A stretch of 64,000 nt of DNA from Heterostelium album PN500 (lineage: Eukaryota > Evosea > Eumycetozoa > Acytosteliales > Acytosteliaceae): positions 620,001 to 684,000 of the forward strand of contig NW_008805074.1 of the NCBI RefSeq assembly GCF_000004825.1, written 5' to 3'. The translations under genes were made by a program, and so were the position numbers. A model generated the notes under the pieces. That model was not told the DNA's origin. It saw nothing but the letters and a program-made list of their open reading frames with translations, and did not search any database. This document shows, in pieces, positions 37,109-61,733 of this stretch (position 1 is its first letter; every line of letters begins with the position of its first letter).

Positions 37109-37338
37109 CCGATCTACTTTCATGCTTGGTCTAAACAGATGTATTTCATCCGCATCGTACGATTCTTCCCCTATTTTAAAAGAATTGAAGAATGAAAAAA
37201 TTAGTTCACAATTTTAATCAATTTTGAGGTTTCTGAAGTGAGGAATAATTGCTTTTTTTTATTTTTTTATTTATATAACTAAAGTAGTATACATGATTTA
37301 TTAAAAGTTATATTAAAAGGATGGATTTACCATCAATG
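35964..37338. other. Spacer within and after unit B
   Basis: This is A/T-rich DNA containing the upstream region of peptide copy B, a (TA)n patch near 36679 and the repeated block 36868-37108. No gene seen. Confidence 0.5.
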
Positions 37339-37730
37339 GTTTTTTTTTTTTTTTTTTTTGCAAAAAAAGATTCATGATCAGTCAACAAATTGCAGGTTTT
37401 GATATTAACCTGCTAGTTCGTGTTTTATATTATATATACATTCTCACACAGGAAATGAGAAATAGCCAATAAAATATTATTATTATTATTATTATTGTTT
37501 ATAGTTATTATTAATTAATAAGTTTAGTAGTATTAGGATAGAATAGATCTAACAGTTGTTGAGTGTTGATTAACAACAGTATAAAGTGGTGGCACGTAGT
37601 TGGAAGGATTTAGATTCCAATCAGATTTAAATTTATGTGTTATTGCAGAGCAATCGACAGTGATTCCTTGGGAGATAGAATTAGCGATTGTGAAGTTAAG
37701 CTTGTGGTAATTGGCATCGATTAATTTGGT

Positions 37731-38045
37731 CTAATGGGTGACTGCTCTTTTGACGGTATTTTCCAGCTTGTAATGGGTACCATCACCAAACATTTCACAG
37801 GACAGTGCCTGCCATAACGAATGTACGATAGCAGCAGTAAGGTGGGTGAAGTGGACAGTAGTACGAATAGGACCGTCGAACTTGATGCACGAGTGCTTCC
37901 AATTGCGAAGTCTATAGTTACAGTACTTGTGGTATATACGTTTGATAGAGGAAAGGAACTGCTGTGAAACCACATTCCTGCATTTGAAGAAGAAATGCTC
38001 ATGTGGGTTGCAGAGTTCAGTGAAGGTGTCGCAGATTTGTATCAA
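37731..38045 (-). pseudogene. Retroelement ORF2 C-terminal fragment
   Basis: An open frame of 104 codons contains a C-x6-C-x3-H-x-H-x4-C cluster (CDTFTELCNPHEHFFFKC) followed by a mostly helical tail. Across the inner insertion the same frame continues to about 38402. There is no catalytic reverse transcriptase core, so it cannot act by itself. It could alternatively be a host gene fragment, but the poly-A tail and the second copy of its 3' region favour a retroelement. Confidence 0.5.
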
Positions 38046-38083
38046 TGTTTTTTTTTTTTTTTTTTTTTTTTTGCAAAAAAAAG

Positions 38084-38112
38084 ATTTGTTGACTCATGAT
38101 CAGTCAACAAAT
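38084..38112. repeat. 11-bp perfect hairpin near the retroelement 3' end
   Basis: ATTTGTTGACT (38084-38094) and AGTCAACAAAT (38102-38112) pair perfectly around CATGATC, a few bases from the poly-A tail. In the outer copy one arm is largely deleted. A second GCAGGT...ACCTGC pair follows. A 3' RNA hairpin used for template recognition is possible. Confidence 0.55.
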
Positions 38113-38198
38113 TGCAGGTATTGATATTAACCTGCTAGTTCGTGTTTTATATAATATTTACATTCTCACACAGGCCGTGAGAAATATAGCCAATAAAA

Positions 38199-38199
<1 letters not shown>

Positions 38200-38259
<60 letters not shown>

Positions 38260-38285
38260 GTTATTATTGTTATTATTATTATTGT
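38200..38285. repeat. TTA trinucleotide microsatellite
   Basis: This is a long (TTA)n run with a few TTG interruptions, inside the inner retroelement copy. The corresponding place in the outer copy (about 37477-37497) has a much shorter run, so the repeat expanded after insertion or in the source element. Confidence 0.9.
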
Positions 38286-38409
38286 TATAGTTAATATTAA
38301 TTAATAAGTTGAGTAGTATTAGGATAGAATAGATCTAACAGTAGTTGCGTGTTGAGTATCAATGTTAAAGGAGTATATGCGCGCTTTCAGGGCAGAGCCT
38401 CATAATAAT

Positions 38410-38481
38410 GGCTCCACCGAGAATTGAACTCGGGGCCTCAGGTTTACAAGACCTGCGCTCTGCCAGCTGAGCTATAAAGCC
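38410..38481 (-). tRNA. tRNA-Thr (anticodon TGT), 72 nt
   Basis: The minus strand folds as a standard cloverleaf. The acceptor stem is GGCTTTA with TGGAGCC (two G-T pairs), the D arm GCTC/GAGC, and the anticodon stem CAGGT/ACCTG with loop CTTGTAA giving anticodon TGT. The T arm is CCGAG/CTCGG with loop TTCAATT. Internal promoter boxes A (TAGCTCAGCTGG) and B (GTTCAATTC) are intact. There is no intron. No run of four or more T follows within at least 60 bases 3', because retroelement DNA begins right after the gene. The normal pol III terminator appears lost or displaced. Confidence 0.93.
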
Positions 38482-39181
38482 GTTTGATGTTGGAAAAATT
38501 TTAATTCTCCGGACCTCATTTATAAATGTTAAATAGAACACTTTTTTATATAAAATACCCTTTAAAAATAACTCAAAAACAAAATTTTTTTATAAAAAAA
38601 TTAATCTTAATCTTCAGTTTACAAGACCTGCGTTTGATGTTGGCAAATTTTTCGAAAAATTTCCATCTTTGACAATGCAACCTAAAACAATACATTATTA
38701 CCAGTGATTAAAGCAATTGAATAAAATAAAGACTGAATCAATCATGGGTGACCAAACCTATTTAACTATTAAACAAAATATAATAACCAAGAATTACTGA
38801 TGTAAACATAAATAATAATAGTAGTATTAATATAAACAACCGAACAATAAACAAAACATTATATATTACTTTGTTAGCTACAGTGCACTTTGGTTTCTTT
38901 CTTTAAAAATTGTGAACTATTTCAGACCTTGATCTGACTGTTTCTTTAAAGTATCTGTAAATTTTTATATGTTATTAATTAATTTAGTGAAAATAGCAAT
39001 ATGTTGATCGCTAAGTACTTAATGAATGCAATATTTCTTTCATTATTCATCTGATTGAATACCAAATCAATAAAATTTTATTTGAAAATTAATTCATTCT
39101 TTTTTTTTTTTCAATCAATCTATTTCTCTGCAAAAAGGTTTGAACTCACACGATTTTTTAAATTAATATAAACAGATAAAA
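38482..39181. other. Spacer with a partial tRNA duplicate
   Basis: This is the 5' flank of the tRNA gene and the promoter of the KDSR gene. A tRNA-derived fragment lies at 38616-38645. The rest is A/T-rich with no gene seen. Confidence 0.5.
38616..38645 (-). pseudogene. tRNA-Thr fragment (anticodon arm plus 5' flank)
   Basis: CAGTTTACAAGACCTGCG directly joined to TTTGATGTTGG copies the anticodon arm (38439-38457) and the 5' flank (38482-38492) of the neighbouring tRNA gene, with the D arm and acceptor half deleted between them. It cannot encode a tRNA. Confidence 0.6.
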
Positions 39182-50415: not shown

Positions 50416-53400
50416 TTAAAGTTGTCTTTGTACTAAATTGGCATAGAATCCATTCATTTCCAAGAGTTGTTGATGATTTCCAATTTCGACGACTTTACCA
50501 CCTTTGACAACTGCGATAATGTCAGAGTCGATGATGGTACTGAGACGATGAGCAATGACAATTGAGGTTCTTCCTTTCATGACATTATCAAGTGCTTCTT
50601 GTACAACTGTCTCGGATTTGGAATCGAGAGCACTGGTTGCTTCGTCCAACAAGAGAATCTTTGGATTACGAATGATTGCTCTTGCAATGGCAACACGTTG
50701 TTTCTGTCCACCTGAGAGTTGTGTATACTTATCACCGAGTTGAGTGTCGTATCCATCCGGGAGTTGATCGATGAATGAATGAGCATTGGCTGCTTTGGCT
50801 GCTGCAACAACTTCTTCCATGGTGGCATCGGGTTTACCGTATCTGATGTTCTCAATGATCGATCCGGAGAACAAGAATGGTTCTTGACCGACCAAACCGA
50901 AATTGCTTCTCATCCATGTCAAATTCATATTGGTAATTGGAACACCATCCAAAAGAATTTGTCCTTGTGAAGGATCGTAGAAACGCTCCAACAAACCAAT
51001 GACAGTTGATTTACCACCACCGGAATCACCGACCAATGCAACTTTCTTTCCAGCTGGAATGGTGAGTGAGAAGTCGTTGAAGATCTGTTTGTTTGGACGT
51101 GATGGATAGGCAAAGTTGATATTTCTAAACTCGATGTCACCTCTGATATCTGGAAGAGTATCACCACCTTTGTTGAATGGATCAATCTTTGAGATCTTAT
51201 CGATGAGCTTGAAGATAGCGTTGGTGGCAACTGTTGCTTTGGCCATGTCTGGTGCGAAAGCAGCGGCATTTCCAACACCCATAGCTGACATAACAATGGC
51301 AAAGAATACACGTTGCATCATACCGAATCCATGGATGGTGTTTTGAATGTAAATACAGTGGTCTTTGCTGACTCCATAGATGTAGTCGGGTGGAACACAC
51401 TTGTTAATGTCGGATTGTGGTGCTTTCCATTCACCTTCTGAGACCAATTTACCTCCGTACCAGTAACCAAGTGCCCAAATCCAGAACATTGTTGCTTGAG
51501 TGAAACCAAACACCAAACCAGCAGTCAATGCCTTCTTCTTGGCGATCTTAATTGGATCTTCCAATGCAAACTTGAATTTGTCATAGACCTTCTTCTCGGC
51601 GGTGAATGAACTGACAGTACGAATACCACCGATCGCTTCGGTTGCGATCTGACCGGAACGCGCGTACGCTTCTTTTCCTTCCTTGGAGAAACCAGCCATG
51701 AAATCCATTTCAACTTTACCGGCGAAACCAATGATTGGAACGGTTGCCAGAATGACAAGAGTCAACTTCCAACCGGCGATGAATGCAATGACGAGACCGG
51801 CTACCATTGTAACGATGTTTTGGATGATCAAACCAAGACGTTGACTTGTCATACCTTGTACCAAGGTGGCATCGGTTGCCAAATTAGCAGTGAGAATACC
51901 GGTGGAGTTTTGTGGCATATCGAACCATCCAATCTCCTGACGGATAATCGAACGGAACGAGAAGTAACGGAGATGATAGGTGAGAACTTCACCGATGTAG
52001 GTGAAAGAACAGATTTGGACAAAATTGGCAAGACCTGCGACTGCAGCCAACAATAAGAACCAAAGACACAATGTAATGGCATTGTCATACATATTGACAG
52101 AGTTGAAAACCTTGAGAATCTCAGAGAAAATAATTGAGAAAACTGGCATGATCGCACCGTTTGCCAAAGCACCAATCATACCGAGCAAGAAGAATGGCCA
52201 TTCGGCTTGATTCATCTTGGCAATACGGAGAATTGGAACTTCAGACTTGACTTCTTCCTTCTTTTCTTTCTTCTTCTTCTTCTTCTTCTTGTCGTTGTTG
52301 CTTGAGGAGTCGAGATTGCTACCTTCATCATTGCTGACTTCTTCAGTGTCGGAAGTAGTATCTGAGGAATTACCTTGTTTATCGGAATCATCAGTGGATT
52401 TAACACCACCATGAGTACCTTTACCTTTACCTTTAAGCTTCTTCTTGGCGTCTTCGTCACCGGATTGTTGACGTTGGACGAGAGCAGTGTAGACTCCATT
52501 CATTGCCAACAACTCTGAGTGAGTTCCTTTCTCAACGATAGCACCTCCACGAACAACAGCAATGACATCAGCACCTTGAATAGTTGTCAAACGATGAGCA
52601 ATAACAATAGTAGTACGACCAACCATGAGTTTATCGATGGCTTGTTGTACGAGATGTTCATTTTGAGTATCAAGAGCACTGGTTGCTTCGTCGAGCAAGA
52701 GAATCTTTGGATTTTTGATCATAGCTCTTGCAATGGCAATACGTTGTTTCTGTCCACCAGACATTTGAACACCTTTCTCACCGACTTGAGTGTCATATCC
52801 TTCTGGAAGTGCAGAGATAAAGTCATGAGCATTCGCTGTCTTGGCTGCTTCAATGATTTGTTCCATCGATGCATTTTCATTTCCATATCTGATATTATCA
52901 GCAATTGAAACACCAAACAATGTTGGTTCTTGTGAGACTAAACCAATATTTTGACGAAGACATTTGACATTGATATCTTTGATATTGACACCATCCATCA
53001 AGACTTCACCATCCAATGGATCATAGAAACGTTCTAATAAAGCGATAACAGATGATTTACCACCACCGGAATCACCAACCAATGCAACGGTTTGACCTTT
53101 CTTGATTGCCAAACTAAAGTTATTGAAAATTTGTACTTCTGGACGTGATGGATAGGCAAACGATACATTTCTATATTCAATATCACCTTCGGCAACATGT
53201 TCAATACCTTCCTTTGAGAATGGATCCGATCTTTGATTTACGATCAATGACCTGATAGATCTTGTAAGCAGCACCTCTACCATTTGCGAAATTTGCAAGA
53301 TTTGGAGCTGCTTGTCCTAAAGCCATAGCACCCTAGTATGAAGAATAAAGAAGAATAAGGAAAAAAATTATTGAGGAAAATTGGAAAAAGAAAAATGTTG

Positions 53401-54624
53401 TTAGAAAATTAAATGTTTAAATATGCTATAATTCAATAAATATCTACATACCATAATAACAGCAAAGAATACAGTTAATACATCAGAACCTTGCCAGTCA
53501 CGACCAGCAACTGGATTGTAGGTTTTATCGGTAATCAATTTGGCACCGTACCAGAATGCAAGACTGTAGGATCCAAACATAACAAAGAATACAGATCCAA
53601 TACCGATACCATTCATTACACCCTTTTTACGACCGATAACCAAAGCATCCTTTAGATTATTGGCATACAGTTGATTCTCACGTTCCTCACCAGAGAAAGT
53701 TGCTACGGTTCTGATTGAACCGATCTTTTCTTCGGCGACAGCACCTGCTTTGGCGTATGCATCTTGACCTTTCTTGGTGAGTTCTGTCATCATCTTGGTC
53801 ATGAAAGCACCACATGCTGCGAGCAGAGGAGTAATGGCGAGAATAACCAATGCAAGTTGCCAACCATTGACCAAACCAACAATGAAACCAGAGATAAAAG
53901 TCGAGGTGAAATGAAGGAAATTACCAACTTTCTCACCGATTGCCTCTTGGAAAAGCTGAGTATCCGAGGCGATACGTGTGGCCAACTCTGATGATTTGGT
54001 TACGTCGTACCATCCGATTTCCTGACGGAGAATCGCTTTGAGATATTGTTTACGACAACGGACAGATTGACGCTCACCAGCTACTGACCAGCAAGTTACC
54101 TCGAGGTAACACGCAACGAACATACCGATACCAATATACACGAAGTTCAATGAAACCTTTGAGATTTCATCGATGAGTGAGAAGTTATCTTTTCTCAACT
54201 CCTGATAGGTGAAAACATTCATGACTTGACCGAAAACAATGGAGATGGCTGGCATTGCAACACCAGCTGCAATAGCACCGATCGAACCGATGACCATCAA
54301 CAAGATTTCAATCCATGTAGCGAAACGGAACAACTCAAAGAATCCAACGGTTGGTCCTACTTCGGGTTCGCCTGGTTTCTTCTCGTCTTTCTTTTTTGAC
54401 TCGACGATGGAGGGTGTAGCAGAAGAATCGGGAGTCGATTCCAGCTCACCGTTGGAAGATGGCGATGCTAAAGGCGATGAATCATCGTTGGCCAACGTAT
54501 CGACTATTGGTTTCATAACTAGGCCATCTTGATGGAAGTCAGTATCATGTTTTTTACCTTCGTCGTTTGTGTAATCGTTGTGATTATCACTATCAGCTTG
54601 TCCACCAACGTTATTTTCATCCAT
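50416..54624 (-). CDS. abcB: ABCB (MDR-type) full transporter, tandem copy 1, with a one-base frameshift
   Basis: Exons 54624-53452 and 53332-50416 on the minus strand would give about 1362 residues. The layout is TMD1 (about 85-400), NBD1, an acidic/Lys linker, TMD2 and NBD2, the full ABCB exporter plan for lipids, peptides or drugs at a membrane. NBD1 has Walker A GDSGGGKSSV, signature MSGGQKQR, Walker B ILLLDEATSALD and H-loop VIAHRLTT. NBD2 has GDSGGGKSTV, LSGGQKQR, the same Walker B and VIAHRLST. In early exon 2 the minus strand reads AAAGATCGGATCCA at 53226-53227, with one G too many. The frame starting GAMALGQAAPNLANFANGRG breaks there and resumes at DPFSKEGIEHVAEGDIEYRN. The paralogue at 57658 has no such shift. 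All motifs are intact, so an assembly error or recent mutation is likely. Exact member name not determined. Confidence 0.9.
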
Positions 54625-57657: not shown

Positions 57658-60600
57658 TTAAAGTTGTCTTTGTACTAAATTGGCATAGAATCCATTCATT
57701 TCCAAGAGTTGTTGATGATTTCCAATTTCGACGACTTTACCACCTTTGACAACTGCAATGATATCGGCATCGATGATGGTGCTGAGACGATGAGCAATGA
57801 CAATTGAGGTTCTTCCTTTCATGACATTATCAAGTGCTTCTTGTACAACTGTCTCGGATTTGGAATCGAGAGCACTGGTTGCTTCGTCCAACAAGAGAAT
57901 CTTTGGATTACGAATGATTGCTCTTGCAATGGCAACACGTTGTTTCTGTCCACCTGAGAGTTGTGTATACTTATCACCGAGTTGAGTGTCGTATCCATCC
58001 GGAAGCTGTTCAATAAATGAATGAGCATTGGCTGCTTTGGCTGCAGCGACAACTTCTTCCATGGTGGCATCGGGTTTACCGTATCTGATGTTCTCAATGA
58101 TTGATCCGGAGAACAAGAATGGTTCTTGACCGACCAAACCGAAATTGCTTCTCATCCATGTCAAATTCAAATTGGTAATTGGAACGCCATCCAAAAGAAC
58201 TTCACCCTGGGCTGGGTCGTAGAAACGTTCCAACAAACCAATGACAGTTGATTTACCACCACCGGAATCACCGACCAATGCAACTTTCTTTCCAGCTGGA
58301 ATGGTGAGTGAGAAGTCGTTGAAGATCTGTTTGTTTGGACGTGATGGATAGGCAAAGTTGATATTTCTAAACTCGATGTCACCTCTGATATCTGGAAGAG
58401 TATCACCACCTTTGTTGAATGGATCAATCTTTGAGATCTTATCGATGAGCTTGAAGATAGCGTTGGTGGCAACTGTTGCTTTGGCCATGTCTGGTGCGAA
58501 AGCTGCGGCATTTCCAACACCCATAGCTGACATAACAATGGCAAAGAATACACGTTGCATCATACCATATCCGTGAATGCAAGTTTGAATGTAGATACAA
58601 CGGTCGTAGCTAACACCATAGATGTAGTCTGGACCAACACATTTGTTGAGATCGGATTGTGGTGCTTTCCATTCACCTTCTGAGACCAATTTACCTCCGT
58701 ACCAGTAACCAAGTGCCCAAATTAAGTAGGTGGTTGCCTGAGTGAAACCATAGACAAGACCAGCAGTATTGGCTTTCTTCTTGGCGATAGCAATTGGACC
58801 GGTCAAAGCAAACTTGAATTTGTCATAGACCTTCTTCTCGGCAGTGAATGAACTGACAGTACGAATACCACCGATCGCTTCGGTTGCAATTTGGGCGGAA
58901 CGAGCATATGATTTCTTGCTGTCCTTGGAGAAACCAGCCATGAAATCCATTTCCATTTTACCGGCGAAAGCAATAATAGGAACGGTGGCCAAAATGACAA
59001 GTGTCAACTTCCAACCGGCGATGAATGCAATGATAAGACCAGCGATAATGGTAACGATGTTTTGGATAATCAAACCAAGACGTTGACTTGTCATACCTTG
59101 TACCAAGGTGGCATCGGTTGCCAAATTGTTTGTGAGAACACCAGTTGAGTTCTCTGGCAAGTCAAACCATCCAATGTCTTGACGGATAATCGAACGGAAC
59201 GAGAAGTAACGGAGATGATAGGTGAGAACTTCACCGATGTAATCGAATGCACCGGCTTGGAAGATATTGGCAAGACCAGAAATGACAGCGAGTAACAAGA
59301 ACCAGAGACACATCTTGACAGCTTCATCGTAGACATCTTTAGAGTTGAAAACCTTCATAATCTCAGAGAAAAGAATTGAGAAAACTGGGAAGATTGCACC
59401 GTTTGCCAAAGCACCAATGGTACCGAGCAAAAAGAATGGCCATTCGGCTTGATTCATCTTGATAATACGTGAAATTGGAACACTGGACTCCTCTCCCTTC
59501 TTCTTGTTCTTCTTGTTCTTCTTCTTCTTGTCAGTATCACCGGATTGTGATCCATCGATTGAAGAATCGTTGCTCTCTTCAACTGAAGAAGAGGAAGCAG
59601 AGTCAGAAGTGTTGGTTAATGTCTTCTCATTATTATTTCCTGTTGCAACGCCTTTGGATTTGAGTTTCAATTTGGTTTCGTCGTCACCGGATTGTTGACG
59701 TTGGACGAGAGCAGTGTAGACTCCATTCATTGCCAACAACTCTGAGTGAGTTCCTTGTTCAACGATTGCACCTCCACGAACAACAGCAATGACATCGGCA
59801 TCTTGAATAGTTGTCAAACGATGAGCAATAACAATAGTAGTACGACCAACCATGAGTTTATCGATGGCTTGTTGTACGAGATGTTCATTTTGAGTATCAA
59901 GAGCACTGGTTGCTTCGTCGAGCAAGAGAATCTTTGGATTTTTGATCATAGCTCTTGCAATGGCAATACGTTGTTTCTGTCCACCAGACATTTGAACACC
60001 TTTCTCACCGACTTGAGTGTCATATCCTTCTGGAAGTGCAGAGATAAAGTCATGAGCATTCGCTGTCTTGGCTGCTTCAATGATTTGTTCCATCGATGCA
60101 TTTTCATTTCCATATCTGATATTATCAGCAATTGAAACACCAAATAGTGTTGGTTCTTGTGAGACTAAACCAATATTTTGACGAAGACATTTGACATTGA
60201 TATCTTTGATATTGACACCATCCATCAAGATTTCACCATCCAATGGATCATAGAAACGTTCCAACAATCCAATAACAGATGATTTACCACCACCGGAATC
60301 ACCAACCAATGCAACGGTTTGACCTTTCTTGATTGCCAAACTAAAGTTATTGAAAATTTGTACTTCTGGACGTGATGGATAGGCAAACGATACATTTCTA
60401 TATTCAATATCACCTTCGGCAACATGTTCAATACCTTCCTTTGAGAATGGATTGATCTTTGATTCACGATCAATTGTTTGGAAAATCTTGAAAGCGGCAC
60501 CTCTACCATTTGCGAAATTTGCAAGATTTGGAGCTGCTTGTCCTAAAGCCATAGCACCCTAGCATGGTGATTAAAGAAAAATGTTGTTAGAAAAAATATA

Positions 60601-61733
60601 ATTCAAATATTTATAGTTTAAGAACTATTTCTTACCATAATAACAGAAAAGAATACAGTTAATACATCAGAACCTTGCCAGTCACGACCAGCAACTGGAT
60701 TGTAGGTTTTATCGGTAATCAATTTGGCACCGTACCAGAAAGCCAAACTGTAGGAAGCAAACATAACAAAGAATACAGATCCAATACCCAAACCGTTGTA
60801 AACACCTTTCTTACGACCAATCTTGAGTGCTTCATTGAGATTGGCAGCGTATCTAGCATTCTCACGTTCCTCACCCGAGAAAGTTGCTACGGTTCTGATT
60901 GATCCAATCTTTTCTTCGGCGACAGCACCGGCTTTGGCGTATGCATCTTGACCTTTCTTGGTGAGATCGGTCATCATCTTGGTCATGAAAGCACCACATG
61001 CTGCGAGCAATGGAGTGACGGCGATAATAACCAATGCAAGTTGCCAACCATTGACCAAACCAATGATGAAACCAGAGATAAAAGTTGAGGTGAAATGAAG
61101 GAAATTACCAACTTTCTCACCGATTGCCTCTTGGAACAGCTGAGTATTGGAAGCGATACGTGTGGCCAACTCTGATGATTTGGTTACGTCGTACCATCCG
61201 ATTTCCTGACGGAGAATCGCTTTGAGATATTGTTTACGACAACGAACGGATTGACGCTCACCGGCAATCGACCAACAAGCAACTTCGAGATATGATGCGA
61301 AAAACATACCGATTGCGATATAGACAAAGTAGAGGGCGACAGCCGAGATTTCTTTGTAGACATCGAAATCTGGTCTTCTGAGTTCTTGGTAGGTGAATAC
61401 ATTCATAACCTTACCCAAGACGATGGAGAGTGCTGGCAGTGCAACACCGGCGGCAATGGCACCGATCGAACCGACAATCATCAAGGCACAGTCGAGTCCG
61501 TCGGCAAAACGGAACAATTGGAAGAATCCAACATTGCTGTTGTCTTCGACGGGAGGTTTGTCTACCTCGTCGGTCTTCTTTGGCGAAGAGGATCCCAAGG
61601 CAATTACGACATCTTCGTCGCGACCAGGCGTGCTGGCGTCACTATGAATAGCGGGTGGCAAATTTATATTGTTACTATTTAATGGCTCCATTGGAACTTC
61701 ATTAAAATTATTGTTGTTGTTGTTTTCGTCCAT
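57658..61733 (-). CDS. abcB: ABCB (MDR-type) full transporter, tandem copy 2 (two exons, 1332 aa)
   Basis: Exons 61733-60636 and 60558-57658 on the minus strand join in frame (GTAAGA...CTAG) to 1332 residues. The intron is in the same place as in copy 1. N-terminal Asn run, then TMD1 starting near residue 80, NBD1 (GDSGGGKSSV, MSGGQKQR, ILLLDEATSALD, VIAHRLTT), a Ser/Asp/Lys linker, TMD2 and NBD2 (GDSGGGKSTV, LSGGQKQR, VIAHRLST). It ends NGFYANLVQRQL like copy 1. Both catalytic sites look complete, so this copy should hydrolyse ATP. The two genes are almost identical in DNA over NBD1 and over NBD2 plus the end of TMD2, but clearly different in the N-terminal 70 residues, the linker and the TMD2 extracellular loop. 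This patchwork suggests gene conversion. Substrate unknown. Confidence 0.93.

Follow-up and report, generated by a model that had tools for sequence, protein, structure and literature searches.

The question raised by this locus is how two copies of one retroelement came to lie behind a single tRNA gene, and whether one of them entered the body of the other. The window, that is the whole stretch of DNA analysed (64 kb, C13:620001-684000; G+C ~32%), carries on its minus strand a tRNA-Thr gene with a TGT anticodon, followed by two element copies with matching 3' ends (93% identity over 96 nt and 92% over 78 nt), each terminating in GCAAAAAAA plus oligo-A. The tRNA, the two minus-strand copies and their common ends had all been recognized in the original prediction, which viewed the copies as nested. 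The features of the region are the following.

38409..38481, minus strand: tRNA-Thr gene (anticodon TGT), the targeted Pol III gene (ARAGORN; Rfam RF00005, 68.9 bits)
38378..38385, minus strand: 3' box of type 2, reading AGCGCGCA on the tRNA strand and lying 23 bp beyond the tRNA (box scan)
38356..38366, minus strand: left (tRNA-proximal) copy of the target-site duplication of the inner element, AACATTGATAC on the tRNA strand
38050..38355, minus strand: inner, tRNA-proximal TRE3-like copy, made by the last 11 codons of ORF2 (QHATTVRSILS, then the stop), a 3' UTR with a (TAA)n tract, and oligo-A
38039..38049, minus strand: right copy of the target-site duplication of the inner element, also within the left flank of the outer copy
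38031..38038, minus strand: host-target remnant (AAATCTGC), 8 bp, between the duplication and the outer copy
37340..38030, minus strand: outer, tRNA-distal TRE3-like copy, made by the ORF2 C-terminus, the 3' UTR and oligo-A
37260..37339, minus strand: another repeat, ~80 bp, directly after the outer copy

On the minus strand, 53 bp of flank, the first duplication copy included, separate tRNA-Thr from the inner copy; then come the second duplication copy, a further 8 flanking bp and, last, the outer copy. The ORF2 part of the latter consists of 99 codons from 38030, an in-frame TAG (37731-37733), and 65 codons to the normal stop. The 104-codon frame noticed earlier corresponds to these 99 ORF2 codons plus a few codons read from the flank; its identification as a conserved single-copy host gene was rejected, the frame being an ORF2 C-terminus with dozens of copies.

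The family was collected from 32.9 Mb of genome sequence in 39 contigs. A search with a 1,065-bp query gave 55 matches, 40 of 158 candidates being scored; searches with three sub-pieces added copies, and the 73 pieces selected merged into at least 69 loci, the true number being probably higher, as no more than 40 candidates were scored per search. The long copy found on C3 (L104+L022) matches the PF03372 endonuclease (3.7e-7) and RVT_1 (2.5e-20), and its best solved relative is LINE-1 ORF2p (4e-14). Its ORF2 is interrupted by one stop and one frame change, and has a C-terminus ending like those of the window copies. A 356-codon open stretch of L104, which has no Pfam match, directly precedes ORF2, and two ORFs are seen in this one copy. 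TRE3 elements typically have a zinc finger at the C-terminus of ORF2; here a Cys/His-rich stretch (CEFCGDTFTELCNPHEH) was spotted by eye in the DNA, and no Pfam zinc-finger match was obtained. A 41-aa stretch translated by eye had no Pfam match, and a hit of the ORF2 C-terminus to Pfam 'Forkhead' (E ~0.01, short of the cut-off) was disregarded.

Other copies of the family are associated with tRNA genes as well. Among 30 loci with 1.5-kb flanks, ARAGORN identified a tRNA in 24; one tRNA is common to L005 and L027, and in L018 element and tRNA converge. A same-strand tRNA lies upstream in 18 of the 20 loci for which 6.2 kb of upstream sequence was examined; none was found in the 6.2 kb upstream of C15:590102 and of the fragment C16:450539, nor in 7.6 kb around the long copy on C3. 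In loci with at least 500 bp upstream, same-strand tRNAs precede the element in 41/59 and opposite-strand tRNAs in 0/59, and opposite-strand tRNAs follow within 1.5 kb in 2/59; the tRNAs considered were the ARAGORN genes of the mapped loci, supplemented with 20 taken from the 63 best-scoring ones. When loci with shorter flanks are included, the same-strand upstream count is 45/69. Sites at which a B box is combined with the 3' box described below add 8 of the remaining 24 loci, one of which has an opposite-strand site as well. This brings the tRNA-associated loci to 53/69 (same strand, within 6.5 kb upstream), as counted with 152 listed of 172 such sites. No tRNA was found upstream in 16/69 loci, several of which had <700 bp or no upstream flank examined. 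The repeated targeting of the region behind one tRNA by a TRE3-like non-LTR element, as originally proposed, is therefore supported, and an absence of tRNA genes from other copies, which would have spoken against it, was not observed.

In 39 copies located within 180 bp of a tRNA, the insertion junction falls 33-170 bp past the gene (mean 86 bp for the 38 with a box); this set excludes elements starting >180 bp away as well as L098, which matches over 37 bp, and the window junction was set by hand to 54. The spacing once thought unusually short is not so: the copy nearest to tRNA-Thr is the inner one, at 53 bp, an ordinary distance. Tandems are frequent: of 28 tRNA-proximal copies with enough flank, 9, the window included, have another member of the family within the next 400 bp; some of the nine may be fragments of one copy. 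The placement typical of TRE5 elements, ~50 bp upstream of the tRNA in opposite orientation, was not seen in the family.

As for previously described elements, Table 1 of PMC5006619 lists two in Polysphondylium pallidum: Pp_TRE3-A, 4,515 bp long, with 35 copies (4 of them full length) inserted 26-138 bp from the tRNA, and Pp_TRE3-B, 4,741 bp long, with 38 copies (2 of them full length) inserted at 57-151 bp; the consensus sequences of both are in Repbase. The 53 bp measured in the window are inside the first range and just under the second, again as tabulated there. The window family resembles both elements, as far as they are described in parts of that paper (Spaller et al. 2016; PMC5006619), in being non-LTR, in the two ORFs with an APE-RT ORF2, in the poly-A end and in the location downstream of tRNA genes. 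It differs from them in the number of loci (at least 69 vs the 35 and 38 copies of the table in PMC5006619) and in having no intact ORF2 among the candidates scored: no open frame exceeds 653 aa in the 68 scored of 243. Two other L1-type ORF2 families, 37-42% identical to the ORF2 of the window family, reside in the same genome. One includes five open frames of 1107-1114 aa (C4:2143240, C3:2527550, C16:178997, C2:1542698, C15:864116), the other two open frames of 1133 aa (C11:1479257-1482538, C27:306102-309383). Of eight copies of these families, three have one of the listed B-box-plus-box sites upstream on the same strand, no more than 3 kb away.

The window family could simply be Pp_TRE3-A or Pp_TRE3-B, with nothing unlisted about it. 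Its same behaviour and similar size fit that identity, 35 and 38 copies being tabulated in the part of PMC5006619 concerned; yet the five and two intact-length copies of the other families sit close to the listed 4 and 2, and both the locus number and the lack of long open frames in the window family speak against it, which makes this assignment possible and rather the less likely one. Since the open-frame counts of the other families resemble those of the intact A and B copies, a third lineage is the better guess. Judged by the published description, the window family may well be an unlisted P. pallidum TRE3 lineage, and the 1133-aa and 1107-1114-aa families are candidates for Pp_TRE3-B and Pp_TRE3-A, respectively. 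Such a numerous, decayed and possibly unlisted family would be a data point on the life and death of tRNA-targeted elements in compact genomes.

The family also behaves like D. discoideum TRE3-A to -D, which are located behind tRNA genes in the same orientation and form tandems at re-used tRNA genes (as reported in parts of PMC5391098). Skipper-2 elements also reside downstream of dictyostelid tRNA genes, according to parts of PMC5006619. They are LTR/gypsy elements, whereas the window copies have oligo-A ends, are truncated at the 5' end and have relatives encoding an APE/RT ORF2.

Whether the inner copy sits in the outer one was decided by locating the start of the latter. The sequence upstream of GACACCTTCACTG was compared in 26 other loci (L001-L030 minus L001, L002, L005 and L027). 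In 22 of them it runs on upstream of GACACCTTC as ...GTGAGTTCTGTGGT (ungapped match; upstream of GACACCTTCACTG, ...CATGTCTGTGAGTTCTGTGGT); L006 matches the same upstream sequence by eye with a one-base gap, and L009, L014 and L020 do not. At this point the window has ...ACATTGATACAAATCTGC directly joined to GACACCTTC, the flank string being ...AACATTGATACAAATCTGC. Because 22 of the 26 loci diverge from the window there, the outer copy is truncated at the 5' end at ~38030, and the inner copy consequently lies outside its body, in its left flank. In the genome search no family match covers 38356-38404 (query 1-49), the locus itself excepted. Judged from its sequence, this segment is host 3' flank carrying the 3' box of the tRNA.

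The locus very likely records two insertions in succession, both dead and truncated at the 5' end, of one non-LTR family (L1-type, APE-RT) which behaves like TRE3; they are placed in tandem behind tRNA-Thr. The two copies are adjacent, belong to the same family and have the same orientation, as a single event would leave them, either a chimeric or template-switched cDNA or a duplication giving both at once. This origin is very unlikely: each copy ends in a separate oligo-A, the inner one is flanked by a duplication of its own, the common 3' stretches are ~7-8% divergent, and tandems with other spacings are found at other tRNA genes. Also very unlikely is the original reading, in which an outer copy starting ~6 bp past the tRNA received the inner one within its body and open frame: the inner copy does stand between the tRNA and the outer one, a few open codons lead in frame from the flank into the outer ORF, and L107 is elsewhere a genuine case of a copy inserted in TRE3 sequence, so that true nesting does happen in this genome, but the divergence of 22/26 loci, plus the gapped L006, at 38030 and the lack of element matches in the box-bearing 38356-38404 segment contradict both the interrupted frame and the six-base spacing. 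Two successive insertions in tandem, at an ordinary distance from the tRNA, are an instance of published TRE3 behaviour; in itself the tandem illustrates, in a clean but ordinary way, how TRE3 elements target one place repeatedly.

The order of the two insertions was approached through the target-site duplications. The 64-kb window contains the string GTATCAATGTT at two places, 38039-38049 and 38356-38366, which bracket the inner copy as originally noticed; the reverse complement of the string is absent from the plus strand of the window. Nine of the 11 bp are unambiguous, because the terminal TT merges with the oligo-A tail, and two random 9-mers from the window are equal by chance with a probability of 4e-5. 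The oligo-A of the outer copy is followed by a related string, CATTGATGGTAAATC, in which CATTGAT..AAATC recurs imperfectly. This match (12/15, with a gap) is equalled by 494 of 20,000 random 22-mers of the window; a diverged target-site duplication of the outer copy is a plausible but weak reading of it. As this candidate is imperfect and barely above chance, the notion that the same site was re-used leans mainly on geometry. The exact duplication around the inner copy, set against the diverged one past the outer copy, hints at the order of events, the outer copy being probably the older and the inner copy the younger. On these premises the outer copy would have landed first at ...AACATTGATAC..AAATC..., the outer-only allele would have had CATTGATAC adjoining GACACC, and this stretch, 43-53 bp past the tRNA, would have been hit again by the inner copy later on. 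In the rest of the family, an automatic search found duplications of 7-13 bp in 14/33 rows and of <7 bp in 19/33, a variable length being typical of TRE3 duplications; the junction was misplaced in the window row, and the 11 bp given for the window derive from direct inspection.

Repeated insertion may be envisaged by analogy with published work on TRE5-A, the only element whose targeting had been studied experimentally in some detail as of 2016, according to parts of PMC5006619. The ribonucleoprotein of the element would be drawn to the tRNA gene by way of the Pol III complex located there, and its endonuclease would nick the bottom strand some tens of bp to ~170 bp downstream of the tRNA. 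The poly-A RNA would be reverse-transcribed from the nick, and the reaction, often stopping early, would leave a 3' fragment oriented like the tRNA. With the tRNA as the point from which the target is measured, new copies would tend to land between the gene and older copies, each newer copy pushing the older ones away.

The flank hit by the insertions contains a feature of more interest than the element. GC-rich dyad boxes (three forms, at most one mismatch) were found 15-39 bp past the end (mean 23, s.d. 4) in 91 of 93 tRNA genes, a sample which is not random, as 41 genes accompany TRE3 loci and 52 were drawn from among the 63 tRNA genes with the best scores; P. pallidum has 273 tRNA genes as tabulated in PMC4334915 (Table 1). 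Duplicate tRNA loci, tRNAs with <60 bp downstream (e.g. L100) and the box-selected L124-L141 were excluded from the scan. No box was found when the scan was begun 65 bp further downstream (0/93), nor in upstream flanks (0/41). The exceptions are L107, where CCGCA and TGCGG half-sites are split by other sequence, and L091, on a 14-kb contig. The box has the form CCGC-NN-GCGG in 61 genes, TGCGCGCA in 26, and CGCAT-N7-CGCAT in 4, the CGCA/TGCG half-sites being arranged tail-to-tail (CCGCATGCGG), head-to-head (TGCGCGCA) or as a direct repeat. The form partly tracks the isotype: the TGCGCGCA type marks 12/14 Lys-CTT and 4/4 Thr-TGT genes, and the box in the window flank is also found behind three other tRNA-Thr(TGT) genes. 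A run of four or more T precedes the box in 57/91 genes.

The link to tRNA genes holds in the reverse direction. The string CCGCATGCGG occurs 63 times in the genome, vs once for the reversed string, and 17 of 18 listed sites not earlier linked to a tRNA have a tRNA gene ending 15-31 bp before the box; one of these 17 genes has an unclear isotype, and two sites lie between convergent tRNA genes. A B box followed within range by the first form of the box is found 120 times vs 3 for the reversed form; for the second form the numbers are 52 vs 0. Separately, a single palindromic box was noticed between convergent tRNA genes in L133 and L138 (and L082), at box-like distance from both, and such genes may share one box.

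No TRE3 insertion falls between the tRNA and the box end (0/38). Positions of box and insertion are uncorrelated (Spearman rho -0.05, p 0.78, n = 38), which led us to reject a role of the box in positioning the nick. The box may bound the landing zone, via selection against its disruption or via a bound complex, while the distance is set otherwise than by the box. Since the box comes after a T run in these 57/91 genes, and since its dyad could hardly accommodate a loop as RNA, it is more likely to be a DNA site to which a protein would bind.

Hofmann et al. (1991) reportedly dealt, as the title has it, with consensus boxes flanking the tRNA genes of D. discoideum. The present box would resemble those, to go by that title, as a conserved box in the tRNA 3' flank; in the present genome it is a GC-rich dyad, placed 15-39 bp beyond the tRNA, and has no match to the B-box pattern. 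A 3' external B box is found at ~80% of D. discoideum tRNA genes, as given in part of PMC5911963. In contrast, the external B box GTTCRANNC was detected within 150 bp downstream in only 2/93 genes here, with 144 bp examined per gene on average. No earlier description of the box was found in the literature searched, which included parts of PMC5006619, PMC5911963, PMC5391098, PMC5633606, PMC13063481 and PMC7919456, the 1991 D. discoideum flank-box paper being outside its scope. With some hesitation, we lean towards a near-universal, undescribed 3' external box which replaces the external B box of D. discoideum, is predicted to be the site of a Pol III-associated or boundary factor, and marks the near edge of the TRE3 zone. 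The box is known here from one dictyostelid genome. If this reading is true, the box would be a lineage-specific Pol III-linked DNA element in a genome in which the D. discoideum external B box is nearly absent, and it would make testable from what TRE3 elements measure their landing distance.

Additional repeats were observed behind tRNA genes. Parts of another repeat (around GTAACCAATGGGTTTTCCC...GGGAAGTTAACTAATTATCATCTGCTCCACAAGCATCACACAGAT) are located just past the box in L059, L062, L070, L080, L087, L090, L099 and L102. The string GCGCGCCACGTACTA occurs ~55-200 bp behind tRNA genes in L049, L040 and L051, and is possibly the 5' end of another tRNA-targeted element. The ~80-bp repeat at 37260-37339 in the window, with the near-palindrome GATGGTAAATCCATC inside, recurs near other tRNA genes in both orientations: ~40 bp behind tRNA-Asn (L066, opposite orientation), behind tRNA-Lys (L072), and 1.7 kb behind another tRNA-Lys (L014). 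It is perhaps part of another tRNA-associated element.

At 38618-38643 of the window, ~130 bp upstream of the tRNA, a fragment of the anticodon part of tRNA-Thr (TTTACAAGACCTGCG) is joined to the tRNA 5' flank TTTGATGTTGG; it is a partial tRNA-Thr duplicate, from which the 5' half of the tRNA is absent. Further away, 50416-54624 and 57658-61733 are neighbouring ABC-transporter-like genes encoding very similar proteins, apparently a tandem duplication.
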